Below are positions 26,357-45,053 of a DNA stretch of 64,000 nucleotides, one piece after another. Location of the stretch: the NCBI RefSeq assembly GCF_000568255.1, contig NZ_KK037166.1, positions 320,312-384,311 on the forward strand, given 5' to 3'. This stretch comes from Kutzneria sp. 744 (GTDB lineage: Bacteria; Actinomycetota; Actinomycetes; Mycobacteriales; Pseudonocardiaceae). Position 1 is the first letter of the stretch. Each line of letters starts with the position of its first letter. The notes beneath the pieces are model-generated. The model was given only the letters and a program-made list of their open reading frames with translations, was not told the origin of the DNA and did not search any database. The position numbers were made by a program, and so were the translations under genes.

Positions 26357-26439
26357 GTCCGGGTGGCGGAATGGCAGACGCGCTAGCTTGAGGTGCTAGT
26401 GCCCGCAAGGGCGTGGGGGTTCAAGTCCCCCCTCGGACA
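26357..26439 (+). tRNA. tRNA-Leu (anticodon GAG)
   Basis: The acceptor stem GTCCGGG pairs with CTCGGAC (one G-U). The D-arm, a long type II variable arm (TGCCCGCAAGGGCG) and the T-arm GGGGG-TTCAAGT-CCCCC are present. The anticodon loop TTGAGGT has GAG at 26390-26392, which reads CUC/CUU leucine codons. CCA is not encoded. The 3' part is partly duplicated immediately downstream. Confidence 0.95.
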
Positions 26440-26467
26440 CGTGGGGGTTCAAGTCCCTGGGGACACC
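26412..26467 (+). repeat. Direct repeat of the tRNA-Leu 3' end (possible integration scar)
   Basis: CGTGGGGGTTCAAGTCCC at 26412-26429, within the tRNA variable/T-arm, recurs exactly at 26440-26457, directly after the tRNA. The second copy continues GGGGACACCA, resembling a tRNA 3' end with CCA. Duplicated tRNA 3' ends are the usual trace of site-specific integration of genomic islands. The mobile cargo lies just to the right. Confidence 0.7.
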
Positions 26468-26507: not shown

Positions 26508-27756
26508 ATGGCGGGTGACTCGGAGACTCACAACCTGGTCAGCGGGACCGTGCTAGGAACCTCCTGCAGGCTGGGCGGATCGACACAGTCACTGTCAACC
26601 ACGCTGGCCGTGTGCCGGTGATACCGAGGCAGCTCCCGGCCGCTTCCAGTCTGTTCACCGGCCGGAAGAACGAGCTGGATCGGCTCACAGCAGCACTCGA
26701 TGCCCAGTCCGAGCACGGCTCCACAGTGGTGATCTCCGCGGTCGGCGGCGCCGGCGGACTCGGCAAGACGTGGTTGGCGTTGCACTGGGCCCACCACCAC
26801 GAGGACCGGTTCCCAGACGGTCAGCTCTTCGTCGACCTGAGAGGTTTCGATCCCAGCGACAATCCGATGCCATCCTACGAGGCGGTGCGCGGCTTTCTGG
26901 ACGCTCTGGGTGTCGCTGCCGACGACGTACCCGCGGAGCTCGCCGCGCAGCTCGGGCTCTACCGCAGCCTCGTAGCGAAACGACGGATGCTCATCGTGCT
27001 TGACAATGCGCGGGACAGTGCGCAGGTAGCACCCTTGCTGCCAGGAGACTCCTCATGCACAGTCCTGGTGACCAGCCGGGACCGCATGTCGGAACTGGTG
27101 ACCCGGCACAGCGCCAACCCCGTGACCTTGGAAGCGCTCGACGAACGCCAGTCGCGGGTACTGCTGTCCCGCCGACTGGGGGCAGAGCGACTCGCGGCCG
27201 AGCCCGCAGCGGTGACGGAGTTGGTGCATTGGTGTGCGGGACTGCCCTTGGCGTTGAGCATCGTGGCCAGCCGCGCCATGCTCGCCCCACAGATTCCGCT
27301 GGCGGATCTAGCTGCGGAGTTGCGTGACACCTCATCCCGGTTGAGCGCGCTGGACGAGGGCGAGCCGGCCGCCAATCTGAAGGCTGTGTTGTCGTGGTCG
27401 TACCGGGCACTGCCCGCGGGACAGGCCAGGGTGTTCACGATGCTGGGCCTTGCTCCGGGGGCCGACATCAGTTTGTCTGCTGCCGCTAACTTGGTCGGCT
27501 TGCCAGAACATGAGACGGTGTCAGTCCTGCGGGCGCTAGAGCGCGTGTCGCTCGTGCAGCAGCACTCCTCCAAGCGCTACAGCATGCACGACCTCGTGCG
27601 CCTATACGCGAAAACGCAAGCGGACGCCGCCGAAGGCGAACGGGGCATGCGGCGACTGGTGGTCTTCGCCTGTCACACCGCGCACGCTGCCGACCGGCTC
27701 ATCGCGCCAAACCATGCTCCTATCGATCTCGACGAGGGGTCTGCTGCACGAGTAGG
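26508..27756 (+). pseudogene. NB-ARC/STAND regulator, frameshifted near the start and cut by an IS3 element
   Basis: From ATG 26508 the frame reads MAGDSETHNLVSGTVLG, the usual opening of AfsR-like NB-ARC proteins. It then needs a one-base shift near 26560 to continue as the NB-ARC domain. That domain includes Walker A GAGGLGKTW, RRMLIVLDNARDSAQVAPLL, and the MHDLVRLYA winged-helix motif. Homology ends at about 27756, where an IS3 element starts, so the TPR half is missing. It is about half identical by eye to the intact regulator at 5862-8186. It marks the left edge of an IS-mediated deletion. Confidence 0.85.
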
Positions 27757-27768
27757 TGACAGTGGTAG

Positions 27769-28629
27769 TCACGCAGCCTGGCTGGCTGACGTGGTCATGA
27801 TTGCTTCGTATTCGATGGGGGTCAACCGGCTGAGGGCGGCTTGGCGTCTGCGGCGGTGGTAAGTGCGTTCGATCCAGGCCACGATCGCGGTCCGCAGTTC
27901 GGTGCGGGTGGACCAGGTGCGCCGGTTGAGAACGTTGTTCTGTAGCAACGCGAAGAAGCTTTCCATCGCGGCGTTGTCGCCCGCGGCGCCGACCCGGCCC
28001 ATCGAGCCAGTCAGGCCGTGACGCGCGAGCGCGCGGACGAACTTTCTTGATCGAAATTGCGATCCGCGGTCGGTGTGCACCACGCAACCGGCGACGCCGT
28101 CACGCCTGGCGACGGCGTTGGTCAGCGCGGTGACGGCGAGGCGAGACTTCATCCGGGAGTCGATGGAGTAGCCCACGATCCGGTTGGAGCAGACGTCCTT
28201 GACCGCGCACAGATACAGCTTTCCTTCGGCGGTGCGGTGTTCGGTGATGTCGGCCAGCCACAGCCGGTTCGGCGCGGTGGCGGTGAACTCGCGGCGGACC
28301 AGGTCGTCGTGGACCGGCGGGCCGGCCTTCTTGCCGTTGCGGCCGCGTTTCTTGCCGAATGCGCTCCACCAGCCCATGGCCGAACAGATCCGCCACGCGG
28401 TCCGATCCGCCATCGACAGGCCGGCGTCGCGGGCCTCATCGGCGAGGAACCGGTAGCCGAACTCCGGATCGTCGCGGTGCGCGTCGAACAACGCGTCCGC
28501 CCGGTATGCCCCGGCCAGTTCGGCGTCGGTGACCGGGCGGGCACGCCATCGGTAGTACGGCTGTCGAGCGATGTTCAGGACCCGGCACGTCACCGCGACC
28601 GGGACACCGTCCGCGGCCAGCTCGCTCAC
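27769..28629 (-). CDS. IS3-family transposase OrfB (DDE integrase core)
   Basis: This 286-residue protein has the DDE residues in NRLWLADITEH, GCVVHTDRGSQFRS and DNAAMESFFALLQNN. The C-terminus (WIERTYHRRRRQAAL) is typical of IS3 members. Its GTG start overlaps the orfA stop (GTGA), so it may be made by coupling or by programmed frameshifting into a fusion. Confidence 0.9.
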   Translation of the reverse strand: MSELAADGVPVAVTCRVLNIARQPYYRWRARPVTDAELAGAYRADALFDAHRDDPEFGYRFLADEARDAGLSMADRTAWRICSAMGWWSAFGKKRGRNGKKAGPPVHDDLVRREFTATAPNRLWLADITEHRTAEGKLYLCAVKDVCSNRIVGYSIDSRMKSRLAVTALTNAVARRDGVAGCVVHTDRGSQFRSRKFVRALARHGLTGSMGRVGAAGDNAAMESFFALLQNNVLNRRTWSTRTELRTAIVAWIERTYHRRRRQAALSRLTPIEYEAIMTTSASQAA

Positions 28630-28934
28630 GAGCGGGTAAAGCCTTTTCCCGGCAGGTTCGCCTGCGACAGATACGCCGTCGCCCGGCGCAGGACCTCGTT
28701 CTCCTGCTCGAGCAGTTTGATCCGCTTACGGGCCTCGTGCAGCTCGGCCGAGTCACTCTTGCTCACACCGGGGTTGACGCCCTCGTTGGCGTCGGCCTGG
28801 CGCAGCCACTTGAACAGTGTCATCGGGTGGACCCCGAAGTCCTTCGCGATCTGCTCGACGGTCACACCGGGCTCACGGTCCCGAGCGACCCGCACGACAT
28901 CGTCGCGGAACTCCTGAGGGTAGGGCTTGGGCAC
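28626..28934 (-). CDS. IS3-family transposase OrfA (helix-turn-helix)
   Basis: This 102-residue protein starts at GTG 28934 with GGGAGGATGTCGCT upstream. It has the IS3/IS911-type HTH (YPQEFRDDVVRVARDREPG, VEQIAKDFGVHPMTLFKWL) and a leucine-zipper region (IKLLEQENEVLRRATAYLSQ). It binds the element ends and partners OrfB. Confidence 0.88.
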   Translation of the reverse strand: MPKPYPQEFRDDVVRVARDREPGVTVEQIAKDFGVHPMTLFKWLRQADANEGVNPGVSKSDSAELHEARKRIKLLEQENEVLRRATAYLSQANLPGKGFTRS

Positions 28935-28984
28935 AGCGACATCCTCCCAGCTCGCCGTCACGGCAAGCCAACTCAGATGTCACC

Positions 28985-29438: not shown

Positions 29439-31647
29439 GTGAAGTCGGCCCGGGGCGCGGTATCGGCCGATGTGGCCGATCCGTTTCCCCGAGCCGCTTC
29501 CCGCACCCGGCGTGCCCCTTTCAAGGCACCGGGCGCTCCACAAGCCCCGCTGTGCTTGTCGTCTGTCCGTCAGGCAGTGGCCGTCCAGGGAGACGGGATG
29601 ACTGATCCCCGATATCGGTAACGAGTAGTGCTCACCTTCTCGGGGTCGAACAGCTCCCGATCCTGCCCCGTGGGCCACCATCCACCACCGCAGTAGTGGC
29701 GGCGCAGCTCGGTCCACCTGGACCGGCGGTGTTTCCGGCGGATCCATCGCCATACCGTCGCGAACACATAATGGCTCAGGTAAGCGAAGGTCACCGACGA
29801 CACCCCGGGCCGGAAGTAGGCGCACCAGCCCCGCAACGCAGAGTTGAGCCTGCGTATCAGGTCGTCGATGGGCTGGTTCACCTCGACCTCGCGGCCGATC
29901 GTCTTCACCTTGGCCATGACCGCCTTGAGGGCTTTCTTGGACGGATAGGAGTAGACGTAGTGCTCGCGCGTGCCCTTCTTGCGATGACGCTGGATGCGCC
30001 ACCCGAGAAAGTCCAGGCCCTCATCGATGTGGGTGATCAGCGTCTTCTCCTGCGACAGGCGCAAACCCATCGTGGACAAGACCTCCGCGATGTCCTCCCG
30101 CAAGGCTTCCGCGTCTGCCCTGGCGCCCTTGATCACCAGGCACCAGTCGTCGGCATAACGCACCAGCTTGAAGTTCGGCAGGCCATGCCGCAGACGCTTG
30201 GCCTTCTCCGCCCTGCCCGTGGCCGGTCCACCCGGCAGCCGGGCTATATGCTCGTCCAGCACGGACAAGGCGATGTTGCTGAGCAACGGCGAGAGGATCG
30301 ACCCTTGCGGGGTGCCGGCGGTGGTCGACCTCAGCAGGCGATCCTCGCCGAGAATGCCCGACTTGAGGAACGCCTTCACCAGGGCAAGGACACGCTTGTC
30401 TCCGACTCGCGCCCGCACTCTGTCCATTAAGGACACATGCGAGATCTCGTCGAAACAGGCCTTGATGTCGCCTTCCACGATCCACTCATAGCATCGTGGT
30501 TTCGAGGTCAGGTAACGAATCTCAGCCACCGCGTCATGAGCCCGGCGCATCGGGCGGAACCCGTAGGAGCACGGGAGAAAATCCGCCTCGAAGATCGGCT
30601 CCAGCACCAGCTTCACCGATGCCTGGACCACCCGGTCGGTGATGGTAGCGATCCCCAACCGGCGCAGCTTCCCGCCCGCCTTGGGAATCATCCGCTCCCG
30701 CACCGGCAACGGCCGGAAACTACGATCCCGCAACGCAGACCGCAACCCGGCCAGATACTCCGACACCCCGACCCGCGCCACAATCGACGCGGCGGTGCGC
30801 CCGTCCACCCCGGCGGTCTTGGCACCCTTGTTGCCCCGCACCCGATCCCACGCCACCAACAGAAACGCGGGATCGGCCACCAAATTGAACAGGTCGTCGA
30901 ACTGCCGACGGGCATCCTCACGCGCCCACCGGTGCAGCTTGGTTTGGATCTCCAGTACCCGGCGCTCGGCCTTGAGCACGGCCCAGTCCAGATCGTCGGT
31001 GTTCACCAACGACATCCCTCCTGGCATTCCACTCTCCATCACTGCTGACTTGCTGGCTGTCTTCGCCCTGTGTCCGGCTTTCCCGGACCCCTCGGCGGGT
31101 CGTGACGCCCGCGACTACTACACAGCCGCCGCCCCACCCGGTCAGCCACCAGCCGGTAACGGACCTGCCCGCGACTGTCCTGGATGGACAGTCATCAGGC
31201 GACTGTCGGGTGGTTCCCACGTTCACCGCGTGATCGATCGATCAGGGAGGCGCCCAGCTGTACTCCGGCAGCATCGCCACGGCTACGCCGCAGGCTTTCA
31301 CCGTGGCCTCCTCGTCGGCGGAACTACCCGGCTTCGGAGTTGACATCCCGATCACGAGTCCTGGGATGTCACGCACTGCACACCGGCCCATATCCACCAG
31401 GTTGGAGCCGGCTTCGCTGTTACGGAGCGTCGAGCACTGGTTCACTCTCGTTGCACCTTCTGACCTCGCTCGACAGGCCCGCACCGTCTGGCAGTCCCAG
31501 CGCGACCTGCCTTTGTCGGGGCCGCTTGCCACCCTCTCCGGCGTTCCCCGGATCGGGCTGCCCCCGTGCTTCGATCAGGCCGCTGCGACGGCCTGACGGG
31601 AGCGGTCTCTCACCGCTCCTCGATCAACGCAGCGCCTCGTGGCGCAC
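29439..31647 (-). mobile_element. Complete group II intron inserted in an IS3 orfA
   Basis: On the minus strand the intron begins GTGCG at 31647 (group II GUGYG) and ends in AC at 29439 (AY). A domain V-like hairpin lies at about 29497-29538, with an AGC start, GGTGCC pairing with GGCAC and a central GAAA. The reverse-transcriptase gene sits in the presumed domain IV. Removing 31647-29439 joins GAGCT to GGACCG and restores the orfA ending FFAAELDRPSR-stop, which fixes the borders. Length is 2209 bases. Confidence 0.9.
29570..31006 (-). CDS. ltrA: Group II intron reverse transcriptase/maturase
   Basis: The start is put at GTG 31006, nine bases after AGGAGGG, giving the usual opening VNTDDLDWAVLKAERRVLE and 478 residues. 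Reverse-transcriptase blocks are present: GVDG, YRP-like SYGFRPMRRAHDA, GDIKACFDEI, GTPQGSILSPLLSNIAL and the catalytic YADD at 30158-30147. The maturase X domain follows, and a short C-terminal region contains RYRYRGS-type wording. It promotes splicing and retrohoming. The frame is intact, so the intron may be active. Confidence 0.92.
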   Translation of the reverse strand: MNTDDLDWAVLKAERRVLEIQTKLHRWAREDARRQFDDLFNLVADPAFLLVAWDRVRGNKGAKTAGVDGRTAASIVARVGVSEYLAGLRSALRDRSFRPLPVRERMIPKAGGKLRRLGIATITDRVVQASVKLVLEPIFEADFLPCSYGFRPMRRAHDAVAEIRYLTSKPRCYEWIVEGDIKACFDEISHVSLMDRVRARVGDKRVLALVKAFLKSGILGEDRLLRSTTAGTPQGSILSPLLSNIALSVLDEHIARLPGGPATGRAEKAKRLRHGLPNFKLVRYADDWCLVIKGARADAEALREDIAEVLSTMGLRLSQEKTLITHIDEGLDFLGWRIQRHRKKGTREHYVYSYPSKKALKAVMAKVKTIGREVEVNQPIDDLIRRLNSALRGWCAYFRPGVSSVTFAYLSHYVFATVWRWIRRKHRRSRWTELRRHYCGGGWWPTGQDRELFDPEKVSTTRYRYRGSVIPSPWTATA

Positions 31648-31946
31648 AGCTCCGCCGCGAAGAAAGACGCCGCTGACTTCAGGATCTGGTTCGCCCGACG
31701 CAGCTCACGCACTTCACGTTCCAACTCGGCGATCCTGGCCGCCTCCGTCGAGGCCGTCCCCGGCCGTGTCCTCTCGTCGGTCTCGGCCTGTTTCACCCAC
31801 GTCCGCAACGCCTCCGGGTGCACACCGAGCTGGTCGGCGATCCGTTTGATCGCCCCAGCCGCCGACGCGGGGTCTCGCCTGGCCTCGACTACCAGACGCG
31901 TGGCCCGCTACCGCAACTCGTCGGGGTACTTCCGTGGTGCCGCCAT
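31648..31946 (-). pseudogene. IS3 OrfA, 5' exon of the intron, with an in-frame stop
   Basis: From ATG 31946 the protein reads MAAPRKYPDELR, then TAG at 31910-31908, then RATRLVVEARRDPASAAG and the rest of an OrfA including HPEALRTWVKQAE. The expected codon is GAG (Glu), so one base change has created a nonsense mutation. The exon ends ...FFAAEL at the intron border. Confidence 0.85.
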
Positions 31947-31963: not shown

Positions 31964-33016
31964 GTGTTCGATGTCTCCATCAAACCCGGGGCGGGACAAC
32001 CCGACCTGATTCAGCTGATTGCCGCGGTAGAGCTGCTACGCGAACATTGGTGCGAACCGCCGAGACCGTCCCAAATGGACCTGTCCACGCTGGTACAGCA
32101 ACTGCTCTCGCTCATCGCCCAGCACGGCGGCGCCAGGCCCGAAGAGGCGTATCGGGTGTTGTGCGGCCGCGGTGGTCCGTTCACCGCGGTACGCCCCCAA
32201 CAGTTCGCCGCCCTGCTACGCGAACTCGCGGAACGAGACGTGGTCGTACAGTCCGCCGACCGAACCCTGCTCACTGGCGCGAAAGGCGACCGCGAGGTCA
32301 ACCACTACACCTTCTACGCGGCGTTTCCGACCGCTGAGGAGTATCGGTTGGTCCATGGCGACACCACGCTCGGCACGATGCCCGTCGAGAACCCGATCCA
32401 CGAGGACCAGCTGGTGGTGTTCGCCGCACGGCGGTGGCGAGTGCTGGCAGTGCATGAAGAGGACAAACTCATCCAGCTAACCCCTGCCTCGGGCGGCAAG
32501 CCTGTGATCGTAGGGCCGTCATCAGGGCGGGTGCACGCCGTGGTCCGAACACGGATGCGGGCGATCCTGGCGGGTGACGAACACTTCCCATACCTGGACA
32601 GCACAGCGCAGCAGGCCCTCGAACAGGCACGCCGCGCATACGCGCAGCTCCGGCTCGACGAGGAATGCTTCGTCCGGGACGGCCAAGATGTGCTCGCCTT
32701 GCCGTGGACCGGCGACCTCGAACTGGGCACGCTCGCGCAACTCCTGGTTGGACAAGGTCTGGATGTCGCCGCACAGAATCTGGCCCTTGTTGTCGTCAAG
32801 GCCACTGTCGAAGACGTGAGGGTCGCCGTCCGATCGATCGCCGAGGCACCACCGCCCACCGAGGTTGACCTCGCTCGGGAGGTCCTGAACAAAGTCACCG
32901 CCAAATACGACCGTTGGCTGGGCGCCGACCTGCTCGCCGCCCAGTACGCCACCACGCACCTGGACTGTCCTGCCGCCGTAGAAGTGGCACGATCTCTCAT
33001 CGGCCTCGTCGCATAG
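31964..33016 (+). pseudogene. C-terminal part of a large DEAD/DEAH (Lhr-like) helicase
   Basis: Real homology appears to begin near 32000 (DLIQLIAAVELLREHWCEPP). The first dozen codons come from the IS end. The rest matches the C-terminal region of Lhr-type ATP-dependent helicases: DLSTLVQQLLSLIAQHGG, GDREVNHYTFYAAFPTAEEY, FAARRWRVLAV, VRTRMRAIL. All helicase motor motifs are missing, so this about 340-residue remnant cannot unwind DNA. The N-terminal part was presumably lost in the deletion that also removed the 3' half of the NB-ARC gene. Confidence 0.75.
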
Positions 33017-34758: not shown

Positions 34759-35036
34759 CGACCGCGATGACGTCGCCGTGTCGCCGCGTGTAGTAGACGT
34801 CGACCGCGGTTGGTGGCAGTGGTGTTGTGCCGATCATCGACATGGATCCGGAGCGAACCGCACGCGCGATAGCACGGCACCCGACGACACGGCATTTCTC
34901 CAATAGTCATCTGGCGCACGCACGCGAATCAGCCGCCCATTGGACCAAACGGGTGCAGCCTGGCTCGAAGCCGCACAAAACGCTCCGAGGCCGACCTTAC
35001 AGTGGAGGCGTCGGCACACCGAGGAGGTTACATCGG

Positions 35037-36602
35037 GTGAGCGAGCCATGGCCTGTCGGGCGGGCTGTCTTCGACGCCTCGTTCAGCGACCGAGTACGAG
35101 TGCTCCTGCGCACCCGACCAGTGGCCGACGCGGCGGACAACGCCACCCGCCAGGCCTGGAGCGACCAGGGCTACGACGTGGTGGCGCTCTCCCTGACAGC
35201 CATCGACACGGTGATCGCCAGACAGGGTTTCGACCACGAAGTCACCTATGACGAGGCCATCACCGGGCTGGCGAGCTTGGCCGCCAACACCAATCCCACC
35301 CGGCCTCACGACGAACACAGGGCGGTCGCGGGGTACGTCGTGGACGCGCTACTCAACCGCAGGGAACGCGAGGCCCCATTCAGCTACTCGGTCTCCGCCT
35401 TCACCCGTGAGCAGGACGGCTCTGTCCGACACAGGCGCACCGCGGTCGAGTTCCGGCTACTCACCGAGCACGAGGACCACGGCCGAGGTGTCAATGTGCT
35501 GCGGGCATCGACCGACGCTATCAACGCCCTCGTGGGCGGATTGGAGTTCGACGTCGAAGACGAGCAGTCCGCCATCGAGCTCATGCTCACCCGGCAACTC
35601 CAACGTGGAGCTTTCGGACAGGCCGAAAAGGCGGCTGAACGGTCACGGTTGCTTTCCGTGCGCTACGCGGACGAACTGCGGACAATCCTGGCGGACACCA
35701 GCCGTGACATTCGGACAGTGTTCAACCAATGGGCCGAGCAAGTGCCGGCACAACTCGACCGCAACCGCGTCCACCTGGAGGAACGGCTCGCCGGGGAGTC
35801 ACGGCTACTCGATCACGTTCGAGGCGCGCTGGACGCGCCGGACGTCGAGCCAGACGTTGCGGCGGCCGCGGCACGCATCGCCGGTTTGCTGGAGGAGTGC
35901 CGGCAGCGACACACCGAGCTGCACGGGAGGCTGGTCACCGCCCGAACGACCTTCCTGGACGAGCAGACCCGGCAGTCGTTCCGACCTGTCGGCGGGCTCC
36001 GCAACCCCGACATCAACGACGGTGTGTTCCTTCCGTTGCTCACGATGCCCACGAAGGGGGCCATCGAACCCGCGGAGACGTTCAGCATCCTGTTGGCGGG
36101 TACCCAGCCGCCGAAGATCGTCCGGTTCGCCGATCTGGTGGACGACCTGCTGGCACCACGTCGGGAAGCCGCGCCGGAGGAACCGCTCGAGCCCGACGAG
36201 GAACTCGGCGACCCCGATCCGCCAGCCGTGCCGCCTGAGGTTCTGGCGGCGGCCGCAGCCGTGGTTGACGGTGTCGAACTGCCCGCGAGACTGTCCGATC
36301 TACTGCTGGCCGCCCGCGAAGCGAGTCTGCCGGCCGGCGTCGACCGCCGGCATGTTGAACGGTTGGTCGTCCTTGCGGTGCTGTGGAACTACGCACCTGA
36401 GACGACGCAGGACGTGTCCACGGCGGTGGATGCGGCGGCATACGTCCTGGGTCCGACGGCAGCGGTCGACGCGGACGGCGTTCGGATCACCATGCCCGGC
36501 TGGTCCGGCGATGACCTGATCGTCGCCCAGGACGAGGACGCACTGGCCCGCTGGGCCGAACGGCATTCCGCCGCCACGCCGCGAGATCGGGAGGCATCGT
36601 GA
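35037..36602 (+). CDS. jetA: Wadjet-like operon gene 1: probable kleisin subunit (JetA-like)
   Basis: Start at GTG 35037, after GGAGG, gives 521 residues. The protein is acidic and helical, with a predicted coiled region at about residues 195-300 (QAEKAAERSRLL, HLEERLAGESRLLDH) and a C-terminal winged-helix-like part. This length and layout fit JetA/MukF-like kleisins, but no specific family motif is certain. The assignment rests on being first of four overlapping genes followed by a kite-like, an SMC-like and a TOPRIM-like protein. Its stop overlaps the next GTG (GTGA). Confidence 0.7.
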   Translation: MSEPWPVGRAVFDASFSDRVRVLLRTRPVADAADNATRQAWSDQGYDVVALSLTAIDTVIARQGFDHEVTYDEAITGLASLAANTNPTRPHDEHRAVAGYVVDALLNRREREAPFSYSVSAFTREQDGSVRHRRTAVEFRLLTEHEDHGRGVNVLRASTDAINALVGGLEFDVEDEQSAIELMLTRQLQRGAFGQAEKAAERSRLLSVRYADELRTILADTSRDIRTVFNQWAEQVPAQLDRNRVHLEERLAGESRLLDHVRGALDAPDVEPDVAAAAARIAGLLEECRQRHTELHGRLVTARTTFLDEQTRQSFRPVGGLRNPDINDGVFLPLLTMPTKGAIEPAETFSILLAGTQPPKIVRFADLVDDLLAPRREAAPEEPLEPDEELGDPDPPAVPPEVLAAAAAVVDGVELPARLSDLLLAAREASLPAGVDRRHVERLVVLAVLWNYAPETTQDVSTAVDAAAYVLGPTAAVDADGVRITMPGWSGDDLIVAQDEDALARWAERHSAATPRDREAS

Positions 36603-37315
36603 CGCTGAGCCAACGCGACCTCGCCGAGGTGGGTGTGCTCATCGCCTGTGCGCTGCGGCCGAAGATGCGGCCTGGTGCGGATTCCGACTACCGGCGTCTG
36701 CTCGGTCGGTACCGCGCCGACTTCGAGTTCCGCAACGCGGTTGACAGTGTCCTTGACGGACTCGACGCGCGCGTCCTCTCCGATTCCGATCTCGGTCTGG
36801 TGCTGGGTGTGCGCCGCGAGTCGGTCTTCGCATTTCGGTTGTCGGACCTGCCTAACGTCACCGGTGTGACAGATCGTCTCCTGGTCGGGCTCGTCAGCGT
36901 CGCGATCACGGCGTACGCCTACCCGACACCCGCCGACTTCGACGACGACCGGGTTCGTTGGGTGTCCGTCGAGGAGGTCGAACGCTTCATCCGCGACGCG
37001 TGCGAACGGCTCAAGCGCACACCGACCGACGAGGAGTCGCTGGACGAGGCATGGCGCTGCTACGACCGATTGTCTCCCGGCTACAAGGCAGACCGGGGAA
37101 AGGGCAAGGGGCGTCGATCGCCAGCGTCGTCGACCTACTGGGTGGCGAGCGTACTGGGCTGGATGGTGGATCAGGGGCTCGCCCGACCGGCGCCCGCTCG
37201 CGGCCCGGAGGCGTACCAACTGCTGGAGCGGTTCCGTATACAAGCCGGGGAACTCGCCGGGAACGCCACCTATGACGTGCTGGCAGCGATCCGACAGGAT
37301 GAGGTGACGTCGTGA
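36599..37315 (+). CDS. jetB: Wadjet-like operon gene 2: probable kite subunit (JetB-like)
   Basis: This 238-residue protein has the size of JetB/MukE-type subunits. Two winged-helix-like segments are plausible (LSQRDLAEVGVLIACAL; VSVEEVERFIRDACERLKRTPT, then YWVASVLGWMVDQGLA). It overlaps both neighbours by four bases (GTGA at each junction), which implies strictly coupled synthesis with the kleisin and the SMC-like ATPase. Function is inferred from position. Confidence 0.7.
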   Translation: MTLSQRDLAEVGVLIACALRPKMRPGADSDYRRLLGRYRADFEFRNAVDSVLDGLDARVLSDSDLGLVLGVRRESVFAFRLSDLPNVTGVTDRLLVGLVSVAITAYAYPTPADFDDDRVRWVSVEEVERFIRDACERLKRTPTDEESLDEAWRCYDRLSPGYKADRGKGKGRRSPASSTYWVASVLGWMVDQGLARPAPARGPEAYQLLERFRIQAGELAGNATYDVLAAIRQDEVTS

Positions 37316-40300
37316 CGTACCAACTGTCCCGACTGCGGTTGGCGAGCGTGGGAGATCGCGCAGCCCGGTTCACCGACGTGACCCTGGATATGTCCTCGTC
37401 CGGCGTGGACGGCCCGGGCGATCCGGTCGACTCCATACTCTGGTTGCGCAACGGCGGCGGCAAATCGAGCCTACTGTCGTTGTTCTTCGCCTTGCTGCTG
37501 CCGCTGCGCAAGGACTTCATGGGCAAGACCGTGAAGCGCTACCTGGAGGACTACGTCGCGTCGGGCGACACCAGTCACACGATCGCCGAATGGGTCGCAC
37601 GGTCCGATAACAGCTTGCTGCCCTCGGCCGCACCGCGACTGATCACCGGCGCGGTCTACGAATGGGTGGACCGCCGCCGGCCACTCGACCCAGACCGGGA
37701 CCGCGACAAGCTCAAGGGGTGGTACTACACGTTCTTCGCGGTGTCCGGGGAACTTGATCTCGACCGGCTGCCAGTACACGACACCGGCCGGCTCAGGCCG
37801 ATGACCGAGTTCGTCCGCCTGTTGCGTGAGATCGCTGCGACCAGACCGCAGCAGTTCTCGTTCGCGGTGACCGACCAACGCAACCTATGGATGGACACGC
37901 TCACCGCGCGCGGCCTCGATCCCGCGCTGTTCAGCTATCAGAAGGAGATGAACCATTCCGAGGGCGGTGTGGCCGAGCTGTTCAACTTCCCGTCCACCGA
38001 CAGGTTCGTCGACTTCCTGATCGACCTGACCGTGGACAGCGCGCAGCCGGACCTCGTCGCGACCAACCTGCGCAAGATCATCGACATCCTGGCTCGCAAG
38101 CCGGACCTGCTCGCTGACCGCGACTTCTGTGTGGAGGTGACGGGCCGGCTGGACTTGCTCGCCGAACGTCACGAGGTCGCCAAGAACGCCGAGACCGAGG
38201 CGAACGCCGCCAGGCAGGCCGCTGCCCGGCTTGCCGGTGCGTTCGCCGTCGCGGCACGCGAACGCGGAACCGACGCGGAGTGGTTCACGAACGAGGAAGG
38301 TCGGCTCCGCGAGGAAGCGCTCAGGTTGGACCGTGAACGTAAAGGTGTCAACGACGTCGCGAACGAGTTGCACAGGGTCGCGGCCACGCACCGTCTTGCC
38401 ACCGCAGTCGCGACCCATGAGCAGGCAGCGTCTGATCATGTCGAAGCCCGGGACGAGGAACTGGCTTGGCAGGCGGTCGTTCCGCTGGCCGAGCAGATGG
38501 AGGCCGAGCACGACGCGGAGTCCGTACGCAAGCAGATGGCGGAGGAGCAACGACAGACGGCACCACTGCGCGTAGAACGCGACCGCGCGGCCACCGCACT
38601 GAAGGCCCGTTATACCGCGCTCGCCGAGGAGGAAGCCGCCGCTGAGGAAACGGAGACCTCCCTCGCCGACACCGCGGAGACGAAGGCGGCTGAGGAGGAC
38701 AGCCGGGCCCTGGCTAACCGGGACCTCGCGACTCAGGAGGAGACCCGTGCCAAGGGCCTCAGGGGCAAGTTGATCGAGATCAGCGACGCGATCGCCGACT
38801 CAGTGCGGCAGGGCGACCTGCCGGGTCCGGACGCCGTACCGGATGTCATTCTCGCCGAGGCACGGACGTCCAAACGCGAGAAGAAGGACGATCTCGACAC
38901 CGTTCGACGCCGCCGCGCCAAGCGGCCGGCAACGCGCAAGTCGTTGTCGAGCCGACGACAAGCCCTTGCCCGTGAGCGTGCCACCAAGGTGACAGAACGG
39001 GATCACCTCGCCGCCGAACGCCGAAAGTTGGCTGAGCGCGTCGATGAGCTCGCGACGCACCCCAGACTGGCCGAACTCGTCCAACTCGACGACGGTGGCC
39101 GGCTGGACCTGTGGCGGGAAGCAGCCGATCTCCGTGCGGCGCTGACGCATGCGATCGCACTGGCCGAGTCGACCATTGTGGACACTCGTGTCGACGCGGC
39201 AGACGATGACCGTGCCTTGGAGGGGCTGCGCGGCGACGCCTTCCTGCCCACCACACGTGATGCCCAGCGCGCGGCCGAAGCGATCCACGCTGCCACCGGC
39301 AAGGCAGCGCGACCTGGCTGGGAGCTGCTGCGCGACCTGGTGCCCGAACCCGACCGCGCCAGGGTGCTGGAGAACCCGGTCGTCGCGGAGCTCGCGGCCG
39401 GAGTCGTCGTCGCGGACGTCGCCGCCAACGATGTCCGCGACGCAGTACGGTCGCGGGACTGGCGGTCGGTGGCTCACGTGACCGTGTGCACCGCCAGCCA
39501 GCTGCAACACGCGCTGACCGGCGCGCGGCCGGAGTGGCTGGTGGTACCGAACGATCCGGCGCTGTTCGATCCGGGCGCGGCAGAGAACGCGCGCGCCGAA
39601 CGTGAACTCCGCCGCGAAGTCCAGGATCGTCGGATGGCCGAGTTGCGTGACCAGGCGGCAGCGGATCGTGTCCTGCTCGACAGGGTGGACACGGTGCTGC
39701 ACGACTGCCCGGAAGGCCACCTGCGCGCACTCGAGGCCAATATCGAGGAGTACCGGCAGGCGATCGAGGACATCGACGGCACCGACCGGAACCTGCTCGA
39801 CCAGAGTGACGAACTCGAGCGCCAGGACGCAGAGGACGCGGACACCGAAACCGCTCTTGGTGACGAACTCGCCTCGCTCGAAGGAAAGATTCAACGGCTG
39901 GCCCTGCTCCGGGACAAAGTCGCCGACTTGCCCGGGATCAGCCAGGCTGTCGAGCAACTGGACCGTGACGCACGAACTCACAGGAGGATCGAGGCAGAAG
40001 CGACCGAACGAGCGAATGAGCATCGCCACGAAGAACGAGGCGCCCGCGACGGTGCTCGCCGACACCACTCCAACAAGGAACGGTACGAGCAGGCCGATCG
40101 CAAGATCTCATTGCTCGAACCCGATCACAAGGCCGACGTCGATGATGCCGGCGATCCGTTGTCGTTGCTGGAGAGGCAATTCGATGGCGCGGACGAACGC
40201 TGGCGCACAGTAGCGTCACAGTCCGTCCTGGCCGAACGGCTACGGAGCGCTCTCGCCCGAGCCGGACAAGCCGCGGACGCCCTGGCCAGGTTCACGCAGT

Positions 40301-41739
40301 CGGCTCGGCTGCGCTCCGCCGCTCTGCTCAAGACCGGTGACGGCCAGGATCCGGCACGTCGAGCAACGGCACGAGAGCGCGCCCGAAACCGCGCGGACGA
40401 GCTCCAGGTGGCGTTGACCCGCGCCGAGACGGAGGTCAAGACGGCCGAGAACGAGCTCAGCGCGCGAACACCGCGGGACAGGGCACGGCACACGCAGCTC
40501 GATGCCGAGCCGGCCACCGAAGAGCAGGCCCGTGCACAGGCCGAGGAGCACTCCGCCCGGGCGGCGGAGATGAGTGGCAAGGTGACCAGCTTCAACCGGG
40601 AAGCCGACGAGGCAGGCACAGCGGCACGCGAGGCGGACACCGCCGCCCAGGTGTTCGCACAACGTGCTCACCGCCTCGCCGATGCCGCCGTCCCGGTCAC
40701 GGCACCGCAGGACGTCCCGGCGTACGACGGCGACAGCGCGCGGGCCGAATCCGACACCGAGCACCTTCTCGAGCGGCTCACCGGCGCCAACACCGTAGCC
40801 TCGTCGACCGGACAGGACCGGGACGAAGCCGTCCAGCAGGTGCGTAAACTGGCGTCGGACAACCGGTTCGCCGCGATCCCCGCCGCGATCAGGGACCGGT
40901 TCACCGGTGACGACTCCGCCGTGCTCGCCGCCCGCGCAGCCGGCCGGGCCGAGGAGATGCGCGTGCGCCGGCGGACGATCGAGGACCAGCTCGGAGACAT
41001 CGACCGTGATCAAGGGCTGGTGGTGGTCGAGATCGCCGCCCTCGTCCAGAGTGTGCTCGCGAACCTGGACTCCGCGCACCGGCACTCGAAGCTGCCCGGC
41101 ACGCTCGGCGGCTGGGGCAACGAGCACTTCCTCCGGATCCGTTTCACCCGTCCTACTGGTGACGAGGACCTGCGGGCCCGGATCAACGCCGTGGTGGACC
41201 GGATCGTGGCGGAGAAGTCGAAGCCGGAGGGTCTCGCGCTGCTCAAACGGTGCGTGCACGAAGCAGTCGCGCCGCGCGGCTTCACCGTCAAGGTTCTCAA
41301 GCCGAACAGCGATCTCGCGGTTGAACCCGTCGATGTGACCCGGCTCGGCAAGTTCTCCGGCGGTGAGAAGCTCACCGTGTGTGTCGCGCTGTACTGCACC
41401 CTCGCCCGGCTGCGCGCGATCAACCGCGGCCAAGGCAGATCCGCGCTGGGCGGCACCCTGGTGTTGGACAACCCATTGGGCACGGCCAGCCACGTGGCAC
41501 TGCTGCGGCTGCAACGCGACGTCGCAGCCGCACACGGAGTGCAGCTCCTCTACACGACCGGCGTCGAGGACCTCGGCGCCGTCGGCCAGTTCCCCAACGT
41601 GCTGCGGATGCGCAACGCCCCTGGTGCGCTGCGCACCAGGCGCTATGTGGTCGTGGAGGAGCGTTTCGGTACGACCGTCGACGGCATCACCAGTGTCCGA
41701 GTCGCACGCGACGAAGCAGTGGAGGAACCGTCGTCATGA
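37312..41739 (+). CDS. jetC: Wadjet-like operon gene 3: SMC/Rad50-like ATPase (JetC-like)
   Basis: This 1475-residue protein has a split ABC ATPase head with long coiled coils between. Walker A is LRNGGGKSS at residues 45-53 (Lys51), the ABC signature is FSGGEK at 1348-1353, and Walker B is TLVLDNPLG near 1382-1390. Two features differ from usual SMC heads. The first Walker A glycine is a leucine, and the residue after the Walker B aspartate is Asn1387, not the catalytic Glu. The head insert FMGKTVKRYLEDYVASGDTS is distinctive. It should form the DNA-loop-extruding motor. It overlaps genes 2 and 4 by four bases. Confidence 0.88.
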   Translation: MTYQLSRLRLASVGDRAARFTDVTLDMSSSGVDGPGDPVDSILWLRNGGGKSSLLSLFFALLLPLRKDFMGKTVKRYLEDYVASGDTSHTIAEWVARSDNSLLPSAAPRLITGAVYEWVDRRRPLDPDRDRDKLKGWYYTFFAVSGELDLDRLPVHDTGRLRPMTEFVRLLREIAATRPQQFSFAVTDQRNLWMDTLTARGLDPALFSYQKEMNHSEGGVAELFNFPSTDRFVDFLIDLTVDSAQPDLVATNLRKIIDILARKPDLLADRDFCVEVTGRLDLLAERHEVAKNAETEANAARQAAARLAGAFAVAARERGTDAEWFTNEEGRLREEALRLDRERKGVNDVANELHRVAATHRLATAVATHEQAASDHVEARDEELAWQAVVPLAEQMEAEHDAESVRKQMAEEQRQTAPLRVERDRAATALKARYTALAEEEAAAEETETSLADTAETKAAEEDSRALANRDLATQEETRAKGLRGKLIEISDAIADSVRQGDLPGPDAVPDVILAEARTSKREKKDDLDTVRRRRAKRPATRKSLSSRRQALARERATKVTERDHLAAERRKLAERVDELATHPRLAELVQLDDGGRLDLWREAADLRAALTHAIALAESTIVDTRVDAADDDRALEGLRGDAFLPTTRDAQRAAEAIHAATGKAARPGWELLRDLVPEPDRARVLENPVVAELAAGVVVADVAANDVRDAVRSRDWRSVAHVTVCTASQLQHALTGARPEWLVVPNDPALFDPGAAENARAERELRREVQDRRMAELRDQAAADRVLLDRVDTVLHDCPEGHLRALEANIEEYRQAIEDIDGTDRNLLDQSDELERQDAEDADTETALGDELASLEGKIQRLALLRDKVADLPGISQAVEQLDRDARTHRRIEAEATERANEHRHEERGARDGARRHHSNKERYEQADRKISLLEPDHKADVDDAGDPLSLLERQFDGADERWRTVASQSVLAERLRSALARAGQAADALARFTQSARLRSAALLKTGDGQDPARRATARERARNRADELQVALTRAETEVKTAENELSARTPRDRARHTQLDAEPATEEQARAQAEEHSARAAEMSGKVTSFNREADEAGTAAREADTAAQVFAQRAHRLADAAVPVTAPQDVPAYDGDSARAESDTEHLLERLTGANTVASSTGQDRDEAVQQVRKLASDNRFAAIPAAIRDRFTGDDSAVLAARAAGRAEEMRVRRRTIEDQLGDIDRDQGLVVVEIAALVQSVLANLDSAHRHSKLPGTLGGWGNEHFLRIRFTRPTGDEDLRARINAVVDRIVAEKSKPEGLALLKRCVHEAVAPRGFTVKVLKPNSDLAVEPVDVTRLGKFSGGEKLTVCVALYCTLARLRAINRGQGRSALGGTLVLDNPLGTASHVALLRLQRDVAAAHGVQLLYTTGVEDLGAVGQFPNVLRMRNAPGALRTRRYVVVEERFGTTVDGITSVRVARDEAVEEPSS

Positions 41740-42791
41740 CGTTGAGTTCACTGGCGCGATACCTGGCCGCACACGTCGCAGACGCGCCCAGGCAGAAGAT
41801 CGAGGTTGGGGCGCTGTACGCCGCGGCCGTCGAGTTCGATCGCAGCCTGGCGACGGCACCGGCGGCACGCGGCGAGATCCGCCATGCGCTGGATGAGCTC
41901 GTCGCCGCCGGCCTGGTGATGTTTCCGCGCTCGCTTCGGGACTTCGACACCCGGGACGAGCCTCACCTGCCCAGGTGGGTACGGCGGCCGGCTCGCGAAC
42001 GTGTCGTACGGGAGAAGGCGCCCGTTCGGGTCTGGCCGGCGGCACTCGAAGCCGCAGGCCGAATCGCGCACCGCGACGAGGAACTGGCGCTGCTGGACAC
42101 GGTTACCGCTTTCCTTCGTGACAGCGGTGCGACGCGGCCGAACGTGCCGATGCGAGAGCGGTCCCTGGAACTGTTCGGCGACGAGAAGAGACTCGATCGG
42201 CTCCTGAGCACCCGCCTATTCACATCGGGGGCACTGACCCTGAACCTCCTGCGCTGCCACACCGTGCCCATCCCCTTTGTCTCACAATGGGTTCCGGGCA
42301 TCGACGACCCAAAGGGCACAGCGCTGCTCATCGCCGAAAACCATCACACCTACACGTCTCTGCTGGAAGTCACACGGCACCGCGCGGCCAGCGGCGGCCC
42401 GGGACGGCATGTGGGGTACGGGACCGGTGGCCAGTTTCCCTCAGCGGTGCTGTCCGTGCCGCTGCTGTCCCCCATGCCCGAACGAATCGCATACTTCGGC
42501 GACGTGGACCTAAAAGGACTACAGATTCCCTTGGCGGCACACGCTGCTGGCTCCCTGGCTGGGCTTCCAGGAGTAGTTCCGGCGGTACCGTTGTATGGCC
42601 TCCTCTTCGAGATGGGCCTTGCGCGACCCGCCAAGCAGGTTCCCACCGCTGTCGCCACGGAAGCTGCGGCGTGGCTGGGGTCGTTCGCCGCGCAGGCACG
42701 GGACGCTCTGGTCAACGGCGTCAGATTCCCACAAGAGGCAGTCGGATACGAGCTGTTGATGGACCGTGGCGAGCGGCTCGATCAAGTCTGA
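41736..42791 (+). CDS. jetD: Wadjet-like operon gene 4: TOPRIM-domain nuclease subunit (JetD-like)
   Basis: This 351-residue protein resembles the DUF3322/DUF2220 (Wadjet JetD) family. The N-terminal half is winged-helix-like, and a RSLELFGDEKRLDRLL stretch is characteristic. The C-terminal TOPRIM domain shows Glu201 in LIAEN and the DxD pair Asp256/Asp258 in AYFGDVDLKGLQIP. In described Wadjet systems this subunit cleaves small circular DNA after loop extrusion. The start overlaps the stop of gene 3 (ATGA). An IS3 element is inserted 34 bases past the stop. Confidence 0.88.
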   Translation: MTLSSLARYLAAHVADAPRQKIEVGALYAAAVEFDRSLATAPAARGEIRHALDELVAAGLVMFPRSLRDFDTRDEPHLPRWVRRPARERVVREKAPVRVWPAALEAAGRIAHRDEELALLDTVTAFLRDSGATRPNVPMRERSLELFGDEKRLDRLLSTRLFTSGALTLNLLRCHTVPIPFVSQWVPGIDDPKGTALLIAENHHTYTSLLEVTRHRAASGGPGRHVGYGTGGQFPSAVLSVPLLSPMPERIAYFGDVDLKGLQIPLAAHAAGSLAGLPGVVPAVPLYGLLFEMGLARPAKQVPTAVATEAAAWLGSFAAQARDALVNGVRFPQEAVGYELLMDRGERLDQV

Positions 42792-42852: not shown

Positions 42853-43752
42853 TTATGCGACTTCGGGCAGCGTAGCCGATGTCGCGCCAAGACTGTTCTC
42901 GTAGGCGATCGGGGACCGTTGCCCGAGGTAGGAATGACGGCGTCGGGTGTTGTAGCGATGCAGCCAGCCGAACGCCGCCAGCCGTGCTTCCTTTGCGGTG
43001 GACCAGCTTCCAATGCCCTGCAGGGTCTCGCGTTTGAACGCGGCGTTCAGGCTCTCCGCGGCGGCGTTGTCCGCGGAACTGCCGACCGCGCCCATGGACT
43101 GGATCACCCCAGCCGCGTGGCAGGCTTGGGCGAACGCCCGGGAGACGTATTGGGCCCCGTGGTCGGTATGGAAGATCGCCCCGGCCAGGCTGCCCCGCGT
43201 GCGCTGGGCTGCTGCGAGTGCGTCGATGACCAGCTCGGTGCGCATGTGATCAGCGATGGCCCAGCCGACCAGCCGGCGCGAGCACAGGTCCATCACCGTT
43301 GCCAGATAACAGAACGTGCCGTCGGCGATCGGCAGGTAGGTGATGTCACCGACGTAGCGGATGTTCGGCGCCTGCGCGGTGAAGTCGCGCTGGATCAGGT
43401 CTGGCGCCGTGCCCGCGGCCGGATCGCTGACGGTGGTGCGGTGCCGGCGGCGCAGCCGCACCCCGGCCAGGCCGATCCCGCGCATCTCCCGCGCGACCCG
43501 CTTGTGGTTGACCACCTGCCCAGCCTCACGCAGCTCGGCGGTAATCCGCGGAACGCCGTAGGTGCCGTCGGATTCCCGGTGAACCACGCGGATCCGGGCC
43601 GCCAGCCGATCGTCGGCAGCACTGCGGGCGGCGCGGTCGGCCGCGGTGGCCTTCCAGTGGTAGAAGCTGGACCGGGCGATCCCGATGACCTGGCACAACC
43701 GCTTCACGCCGTAGCGGCGGTGATGGTCGGCGACGAACTGGAAGCGGTTCAC
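42853..43752 (-). CDS. IS3-family transposase OrfB (DDE integrase core)
   Basis: This 299-residue protein opens with the HTH_21-like segment (YGVKRLCQVIGIARSSFYHW). It carries the catalytic residues in IRYVGDITYLP, GAIFHTDHGAQY and DNAAAESLNAAFKRE. Its ATG overlaps the orfA stop (ATGA). Confidence 0.92.
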   Translation of the reverse strand: MNRFQFVADHHRRYGVKRLCQVIGIARSSFYHWKATAADRAARSAADDRLAARIRVVHRESDGTYGVPRITAELREAGQVVNHKRVAREMRGIGLAGVRLRRRHRTTVSDPAAGTAPDLIQRDFTAQAPNIRYVGDITYLPIADGTFCYLATVMDLCSRRLVGWAIADHMRTELVIDALAAAQRTRGSLAGAIFHTDHGAQYVSRAFAQACHAAGVIQSMGAVGSSADNAAAESLNAAFKRETLQGIGSWSTAKEARLAAFGWLHRYNTRRRHSYLGQRSPIAYENSLGATSATLPEVA

Positions 43753-44060
43753 CAGCGCGTCTCCCCGGCGAAATACTTGGCCGCCTTGCGCAGGATCTCG
43801 CGTTCCTCCTCCAACTCTCGGACTCGCTTGCGCAGCTCGGCGTTCTCGCTTTCCAGCGTGCCCGAGGCCGGCGCGGCAACCGGGGTTGCGCCGGTCGTGG
43901 GGTGGGAATCGGCGCGTCGTGCGTCGTCGATCCGGATCCAGGACCGCAGCGTCTCGGCGTTGACCCCAAGATGCCTGGCCACCGCGGCGACCGTCGTGCC
44001 CGGACGGGACCGGTACAGCGCGACCGCCTCAGCCTTGAACTCCGGCGGGTAGTGCTTCAT
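43749..44060 (-). CDS. IS3-family transposase OrfA (helix-turn-helix)
   Basis: This is about 103 residues from ATG 44060 (a second ATG lies at 44066). The HTH is YPPEFKAEAVALYRSRPG with VAAVARHLGVNAETLRSWI. A coiled region, ENAELRKRVRELEEEREIL, follows. It works with OrfB, probably also as an OrfAB fusion by frameshifting. Confidence 0.9.
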   Translation of the reverse strand: MKHYPPEFKAEAVALYRSRPGTTVAAVARHLGVNAETLRSWIRIDDARRADSHPTTGATPVAAPASGTLESENAELRKRVRELEEEREILRKAAKYFAGETRW

Positions 44061-44216
44061 GACCATTTATGCAGGACTCCAGTCCACCCGGACCATCACG
44101 ATCCGAGTGTGTCAGGTGTCCAACATCCGGGGTCAAGTCCCGTGGATGTGTTGCCGGGTACGGGTTCCAGGTCACAGCGTCCGTTGTCGGTGGGCGTGTC
44201 GGTGCTGGAGACATGA

Positions 44217-44274: not shown

Positions 44275-45053
44275 ATGCTGTTCTACCGTGCGGCGCTGCC
44301 GTTGTCACGTCAGACCCTGACCGTCGTGTCCAGGCTGATCCGTACCCACCGCCGGCGGATCGGCTCGGTGTGGCGGGCGCTCAACCCGGGACAACAGGCC
44401 CTGCTGGTGCTGGTGTGCCTGCGCAAGGCGAGCCGTTCGCCGAGGTCGGCGCCGGGTTCGAGGTGTCCACCGCCACCTGCTGGCGCTACGTCAACGAGAC
44501 CGTCGGATTGCTGACCGCGCGGGCGCCGAAGCTGCGGGCGGCACTCCGGAAAGCCCAGCGCGAGGGGATGGCCTACGTGATCATCGACGGCACCCTGATC
44601 CCGATCGACCGGATCGCCGCCGACCGCCCGTACTACTCCGGCAAACACAAGCTCCATGGAATAAACGTCCAGGTGATCGCCTCCCCAGACGGCACGATCC
44701 TGTGGGTGTCCGGCCAACTGCCCGGCAGCACGCACGACACCGCCGCCGCCCGGATCTGGCAGATCCTCGCCGCCCTACGCGACACCGGGCTCATCGCGTT
44801 GGGCGACAAGGGCTACCACGGCTACGACCAGACCGGACACCACGTGATCACCCCGTACAAGGGCCGCAACAAGCCCGAGTCCCAGAAGGAGGCCAACCGC
44901 GCCCACGCCCGGCTGCGCGGCCCCGGCGAACGCGCCAACGCACAACTCAAGACCTGGCGCATCCTGCGCAAGCTCCGGTGCTGTCCCCGCCGCGCCGGCC
45001 GTCCGGCCAAGGCCATCCACGTGCTACAGAACTACGAAGTCACCGCAGGATGA
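44275..45053 (+). pseudogene. IS5-like (DDE_Tnp_4 type) transposase with a frameshift
   Basis: The N-terminal part (LFYRAALPLSRQTLTVVSRL, GQQALLVLVCLRK) and the C-terminal part (GEPFAEVGAGFEVSTATCWRY, YVIIDGTLIPIDR, GDKGYHGYD, PYKGRNKPESQKEANRAHA, ERANAQLKTWRIL) are in different frames. They meet at about 44428, where one G seems missing between CGCAA and GGCGAG. Catalytic Asp, Asp and Glu positions are retained. Some related IS use programmed frameshifting, so a functional fusion cannot be excluded. No inverted end was found on the left side. Confidence 0.82.

Follow-up and report, generated by a model that had tools for sequence, protein, structure and literature searches.

The four genes at positions 35037-42791 of the window (the whole 64,000-nucleotide stretch of Kutzneria sp. 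744 DNA that was analysed) raise the question of whether an operon with a Wadjet-like gene set and an odd ATPase head is, as had been proposed from the sequence alone, a Wadjet subtype not yet described or a related anti-plasmid system, or belongs to a type already named. We are confident that it is Wadjet type III, with the operon complete and probably functional. It is an ordinary, real member of that type, and a new subtype is unnecessary. Wadjet type III was reportedly named by Doron et al. in 2018, and is said there to restrict plasmids.

Assignment of the operon to Wadjet type III

35037-36602, + strand: jetA (type III), probable kleisin, 521 aa, GTG start; PADLOC PDLC00567 JetA3
36599-37315, + strand: jetB (type III), probable KITE, 238 aa; weak JetB3 match, placed between A and C
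37312-41739, + strand: jetC (type III), SMC-like ATPase, 1475 aa; PADLOC PDLC00579 JetC3, full length
41736-42791, + strand: jetD (type III), TOPRIM nuclease, 351 aa; PADLOC PDLC00594 JetD3

The gene coordinates and the three 4-base overlaps that join jetA-jetB-jetC-jetD (GTGA, GTGA, and ATGA) are as the sequence-only reading had given them, and all four reading frames are open. The start of jetA was placed at 35037, and not at that of a longer frame from 34827, because GAGGAGG at 35021-35027 ends nine bases 5' of the former and JetA3 profile position 4 falls at residue 7.

When compared with the PADLOC profiles, JetA matched JetA3 with 545.6 bits (residues 7-519 on profile positions 4-502 of 504), JetC matched JetC3 along its entire length (2137.9 bits, E = 0, residues 1-1475 on 1-1453 of 1453), and JetD matched JetD3 with 343.8 bits. 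Every Jet match was to type III: no type I or type II Jet profile matched any of the four proteins at E<=1, JetC1 and JetC2 against JetC included. JetB gave only a weak match to JetB3 (12 bits, E 0.026); a JetB3 profile (PDLC00577) recognised four of 12 aligned JetB proteins at E<=0.01 (best 2.4e-7), the window protein falling outside those four, and the JetB call is therefore mostly positional. Its place between A and C is maintained across relatives. Pfam and NCBIfam gave nothing useful on JetA, JetB, or JetC, and Pfam JetD_C scored 20.4 bits on JetD, slightly under the cut-off of 22. No relative of JetC or JetD was found in the PDB by phmmer at E<=0.1, hhalign gave no alignment of JetB with type I JetB (probability 0.2%), and the AlphaFold models (two sequences each) had mean pLDDT values of 40 for JetB and 34 for JetD, confirming no fold.

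What stands of the sequence-only reading is a Wadjet-like operon for kleisin, KITE, SMC, and TOPRIM proteins, with an ATPase head unlike that of type I JetC; an undescribed subtype is unsupported, as the profiles place JetA, JetC, and JetD in type III. The operon shares with that type its gene set, gene order, full-length JetC3 match, JetA3 and JetD3 matches, D-N Walker B, and JetD active site, and the divergent JetB is the sole difference found.

The A-B-C-D order recurs in a congener (L044, protein identity 75-87%) and in Amycolatopsis coloradensis (L043, 67-82%), window JetA being 85% and 78% identical to its respective counterparts. Two close relatives with the same four ordered genes, together with the JetC3 match at E = 0, argue that the operon did not come together by chance. 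The same four genes occur in Polaromonas and Rhodococcus plasmid loci, where the fourth is annotated as a JetD-domain protein; in an E. coli record (L079), B, C, and D were recognised and JetA was not. The related-locus search of genomes gave one relative, and the viral contigs searched for related loci gave no confirmed one.

The putative active site of JetD that had been read from the sequence (E201, D256, and D258) is present and is invariant in 12/12 aligned JetD proteins. Three of four further JetD proteins have all three acids, and the fourth (G182) has both aspartates without the glutamate. Type I JetD aligns over the TOPRIM part (hhalign E=4e-8, 64 columns), with VENEVSY and GDID at matching places. 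More generally, the operon shares the same four roles with Wadjet type I, MksBEFG, and EptABCD, and the JetD TOPRIM residues align among them. The condensins MukBEF and MksBEF, which have no nuclease, consist of the kleisin, KITE, and SMC trio found in relatives without JetD, whereas the window operon has JetD.

The type I mechanism is expected to carry over to type III by homology. In a 2023 review (PMC10586767), type I JetABC is described as a dimer-of-dimers SMC complex and JetD as the nuclease, cleavage requiring ATP and a working JetC; the same review notes that Wadjet research has mostly concerned type I, with types II and III still to be characterised. We infer that JetB is the KITE subunit, and that JetA, JetB, and JetC would assemble into an SMC motor that loads on DNA and, by analogy with type I, travels along it using ATP. 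On recognising a small circular DNA, the motor would activate the TOPRIM nuclease JetD, which would cut the circle and so cause plasmids to be lost.

The surroundings of the operon contain the following features, strand being given where noted.

26357-26440: tRNA-Leu gene
26612-27862: protein with an NB-ARC domain, next to tRNA-Leu
27769-28629: transposase gene near the SngC remnant
28626-28961 and 31575-31823: two short frames, transposase-like pieces by eye
29570-31042: group II intron maturase near the SngC remnant
42853-43752, - strand: transposase gene with rve and HTH_21 domains, directly after jetD
43749-44066: small frame overlapping the rve/HTH_21 gene, IS3-like by eye
44370-45053: DDE_Tnp_4 transposase

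The SngC remnant (31964-33016) is a broken neighbouring defence gene: it retains the C-terminal half of this PADLOC defence family (profile positions 389-718 of 720), and the N-terminal half is missing. We considered whether the downstream transposase gene (42853) had caused jetD to decay and rejected this; the final residues of JetD match those of the Amycolatopsis and congener proteins, and jetD is therefore complete.

A chromosome-organising SMC complex that merely happens to have retained a nuclease gene, and that plays no part in defence, is suggested by the occurrence of JetABC with no JetD found in other actinomycetes, many of these loci lying at conserved chromosomal places. However, JetC3 is present in only 3/7 sampled genomes of the window's genus, the JetD active site is intact, and the operon is flanked by transposase genes and adjoins the broken SngC gene; for this particular operon, we therefore judge such a role to be very unlikely and retain the type III defence operon as our reading.

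The JetC ATPase head

The motifs reported for JetC are all present: Walker A as LRNGGGKSS with K51, the signature SGGEK from S1349, and Walker B as LVLDNPLG with D1386-N1387. The sequence-only reading was correct that a leucine at the first Walker A glycine and Asn1387 are unlike type I, but both proved to be traits of the type III family, and they do not set this protein apart. Our widest JetC alignment has 46 rows, i.e., the 39 rows of the tree described below plus seven others, which come from five additional loci and are in some cases only pieces. Position 1386 is Asp and position 1387 is Asn in 44/44 rows with letters (two rows are gapped); these are not 44 independent cases, as many rows belong to two low-divergence groups, and overall the rows span Actinomycetota, Microvirga (alpha), Polaromonas (beta), and the E. 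coli record (gamma). Leu45 replaces the first Walker A glycine in 40/41 type III rows, N47, G48, G50, and K51 are present in all 41, and the signature residues S1349 and G1351 occur in 44/44 rows with letters. The stretch FMGKT...LEDYV, previously taken for an unusual insert, is no insertion: it is reached by 34/38 JetC rows, the window's included (four end earlier), and aligns there with homologous stretches such as RVLEKFV...DVAHVVLEW in other type III JetC.

When compared by hhalign, types III and I could be aligned over the C-terminal part of the SMC head with a probability of 45% for the whole stretch, and the motif columns are in register, type III DNPLG lying opposite type I DEAFG. The glutamate that follows the Walker B aspartate is thus absent from window JetC, where Asn1387 stands opposite the type I Glu. 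Window JetC has D-N and not D-E, lacks the first Walker A glycine, and, at 1475 aa, exceeds the 1129-aa type I protein encoded in the same genome by ~350 residues. Lamassu LmuB is likewise an SMC-like ATPase of an immune system, and its Walker B glutamate is naturally replaced by Gln (PMC10586767); however, LmuB is smaller, carries another residue, and has other partners, and no LmuB match was found in the window operon at E<=1.

This comparison with type I and the lack of a sequence relative of JetC in the PDB at E<=0.1 are what could still be said for a Wadjet subtype yet to be described, or for another kind of anti-plasmid system, marked by its head. Given a full-length JetC3 match, three of four proteins placed in type III by profile, and head oddities that are family-wide, including N1387 in every row with letters, we consider that explanation highly improbable. 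A decayed, inactive copy whose motor catalysis was lost through Asn1387 is equally improbable, since, although an E-to-Q change at the equivalent place impairs MksB and the closest named relative has an in-frame stop in jetC, Asn occurs in every type III row examined, the four frames are open, and a dN/dS of 0.22 relative to the G001 gene indicates purifying selection on jetC.

The in-frame stop just mentioned splits jetC of Amycolatopsis coloradensis DSM 44225, the nearest named relative (L043:7986-12413), and reflects either an inactive copy or a sequence error. The MksB change is E1042Q of C. glutamicum, which impairs the ATPase (PMC10123090); that system is a type I Wadjet (PMC12287153).

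The ordinary type III operon of the window has a consequence for the whole type, in that the head oddities shift from marking a possible new subtype to posing a biochemical question about all type III Wadjet. As the Walker B Glu is Asn in all JetC examined, ATP hydrolysis by type III would have to be slow or to proceed via another group. Three acids outside the usual motifs are invariant in type III, E93 (41/41), E217 (41/41), and D1420 (44/44), and E217, E93, or D1420 would be our guess at a substitute base. If true, an active SMC family without the catalytic glutamate would be an exception to the usual view of ATP hydrolysis by SMC heads. The literature consulted, which consisted of excerpts from largely open-access papers, contained no mention of Asn in type III JetC or of nuclease-free type III JetABC.

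Type III JetABC without JetD

The linkage of the four genes holds only in part: A-B-C-D are linked in many relatives, and in many others A-B-C is present but D was not detected. In a set of 36 genomes chosen for strong JetC3 (the weak partial matches G028, G035, G091, G216, and G229 were dropped), JetD3 was matched anywhere in 12 and nowhere in 24. An actinomycete genus (g76) has JetC3 in 80/81 genomes, or 78/78 of the good ones, and JetD3 above 100 bits in 5/81, plus two weak matches. For the window's family, the corresponding figures are 48/150 genomes with JetC3 (PDLC00588) and 25/150 with JetD3, of which 14 exceed 100 bits and 11 score <=31 bits; strong JetD3 was found in 13 of the 48 JetC3 genomes. 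These JetD3 counts could miss a very divergent JetD, as the candidates scored per genome were limited to <=26 for g76, <=14 for the window's family, and <=59 for the 36-genome set. The JetC3 profiles each matched one of 14 control genomes, PDLC00579 in H. volcanii and PDLC00588 in M. jannaschii. At least four genomes (G288, G518, G506, and G445) contain both a JetC that has a JetD beside it and another that does not, adjacency being taken from coordinates.

Loci with jetABC and no jetD found occur in genus g76 (L055, L057, L061, and L093-L097) and in family f1 (L048-L052, L082-L087, and L089-L091), many of them in each case at conserved chromosomal places. Judged by the look of their sequences, the common neighbours are whiA/yvcK/rapZ and gap/pgk in f1; those in g76 are a kinase that resembles NahK and a regulator that resembles GntR. 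The complete set of neighbours was read at L046, L048, L049, L055, L057, and L060; a single probed neighbour was found at G059, G046, G054, G340, and G256, and none at G010, G045, and G098. The f1 locus of G024, at the same chromosomal place as the f1 loci without JetD, has a JetD with its three acids.

A JetC tree of 39 rows, of which 15 have JetD and 24 do not, was constructed by a quick method that flagged long branches; L060, for which there is only an N-terminal jetC piece, lies outside it. The tree requires at least five changes of JetD state, and gain and loss are indistinguishable in it. In the JetD-less groups, purifying selection acts on JetC (dN/dS 0.08-0.28 over seven pairs), and those JetD-less rows that reach the motifs have Walker A, signature, and D-N intact. 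It looks as if the nuclease was lost (or gained) repeatedly and the trio settled into a chromosomal role resembling that of MukBEF, and the ratio of 80/81 JetC3 to 5/81 strong JetD3 suggests a non-defence role in g76. The JetD-less loci may have a very divergent JetD, or another nuclease that is unlinked. The PADLOC authors themselves warn of the general likeness between Wadjet and Muk, and in their scheme an operon is called Wadjet when all four genes are present (PMC9252829).

Taken together, we would suggest, tentatively and with more doubt than conviction, that type III is an SMC family that dispenses with the Walker B Glu and uses another ATP route (E217/E93/D1420), and that one or more branches shed JetD and became near-universal and chromosomally fixed in a large actinomycete genus and in much of the window's family. 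If this is true, a nuclease-free Wadjet trio in nearly all genomes of a genus would be a second chromosomal SMC complex, and it would bear on whether defence and chromosome SMCs interconvert, a matter that the 2023 review (PMC10586767) called unresolved. By itself, the window operon is one more ordinary type III Wadjet operon.

Other SMC loci in the same genome and elsewhere

The window's genome also contains a complete Wadjet type I operon (L071, G000:C1:2809000-2825000), with PADLOC scores of 706 (JetA1), 313 (JetB1), 1532 (JetC1), and 453 bits (JetD1); its JetC has the canonical D-E in IDEAFG and the usual Walker A GDIGSGKS. A third SMC-like locus lies near 10.79 Mb of G000:C1 (L072:1676-11485). 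Alongside small genes, it encodes an SMC-like ATPase of 1021 aa with DE, a protein of 480 aa of which part is JetD1-like (43.6 bits), and a helicase-like protein of 980 aa. Its proteins gave no strong match to one system in PADLOC, and the SMC is rare, with a partial match in one other of 149 sampled genomes, its own included.

The type III jetC piece of the E. coli record (L079:2930-6900) matches 90/5426 complete E. coli genomes, all chromosomally, and 61 of the 90 matches cover >=80% of the query. Among the 10 matches listed, the annotation is mainly hypothetical protein, and two have an IS3 transposase inside. In a Streptomyces plasmid (L101:8072-10053), a four-gene locus with a type III jetC is followed by an annotated 3'-5' exonuclease gene, again with a 4-base overlap.
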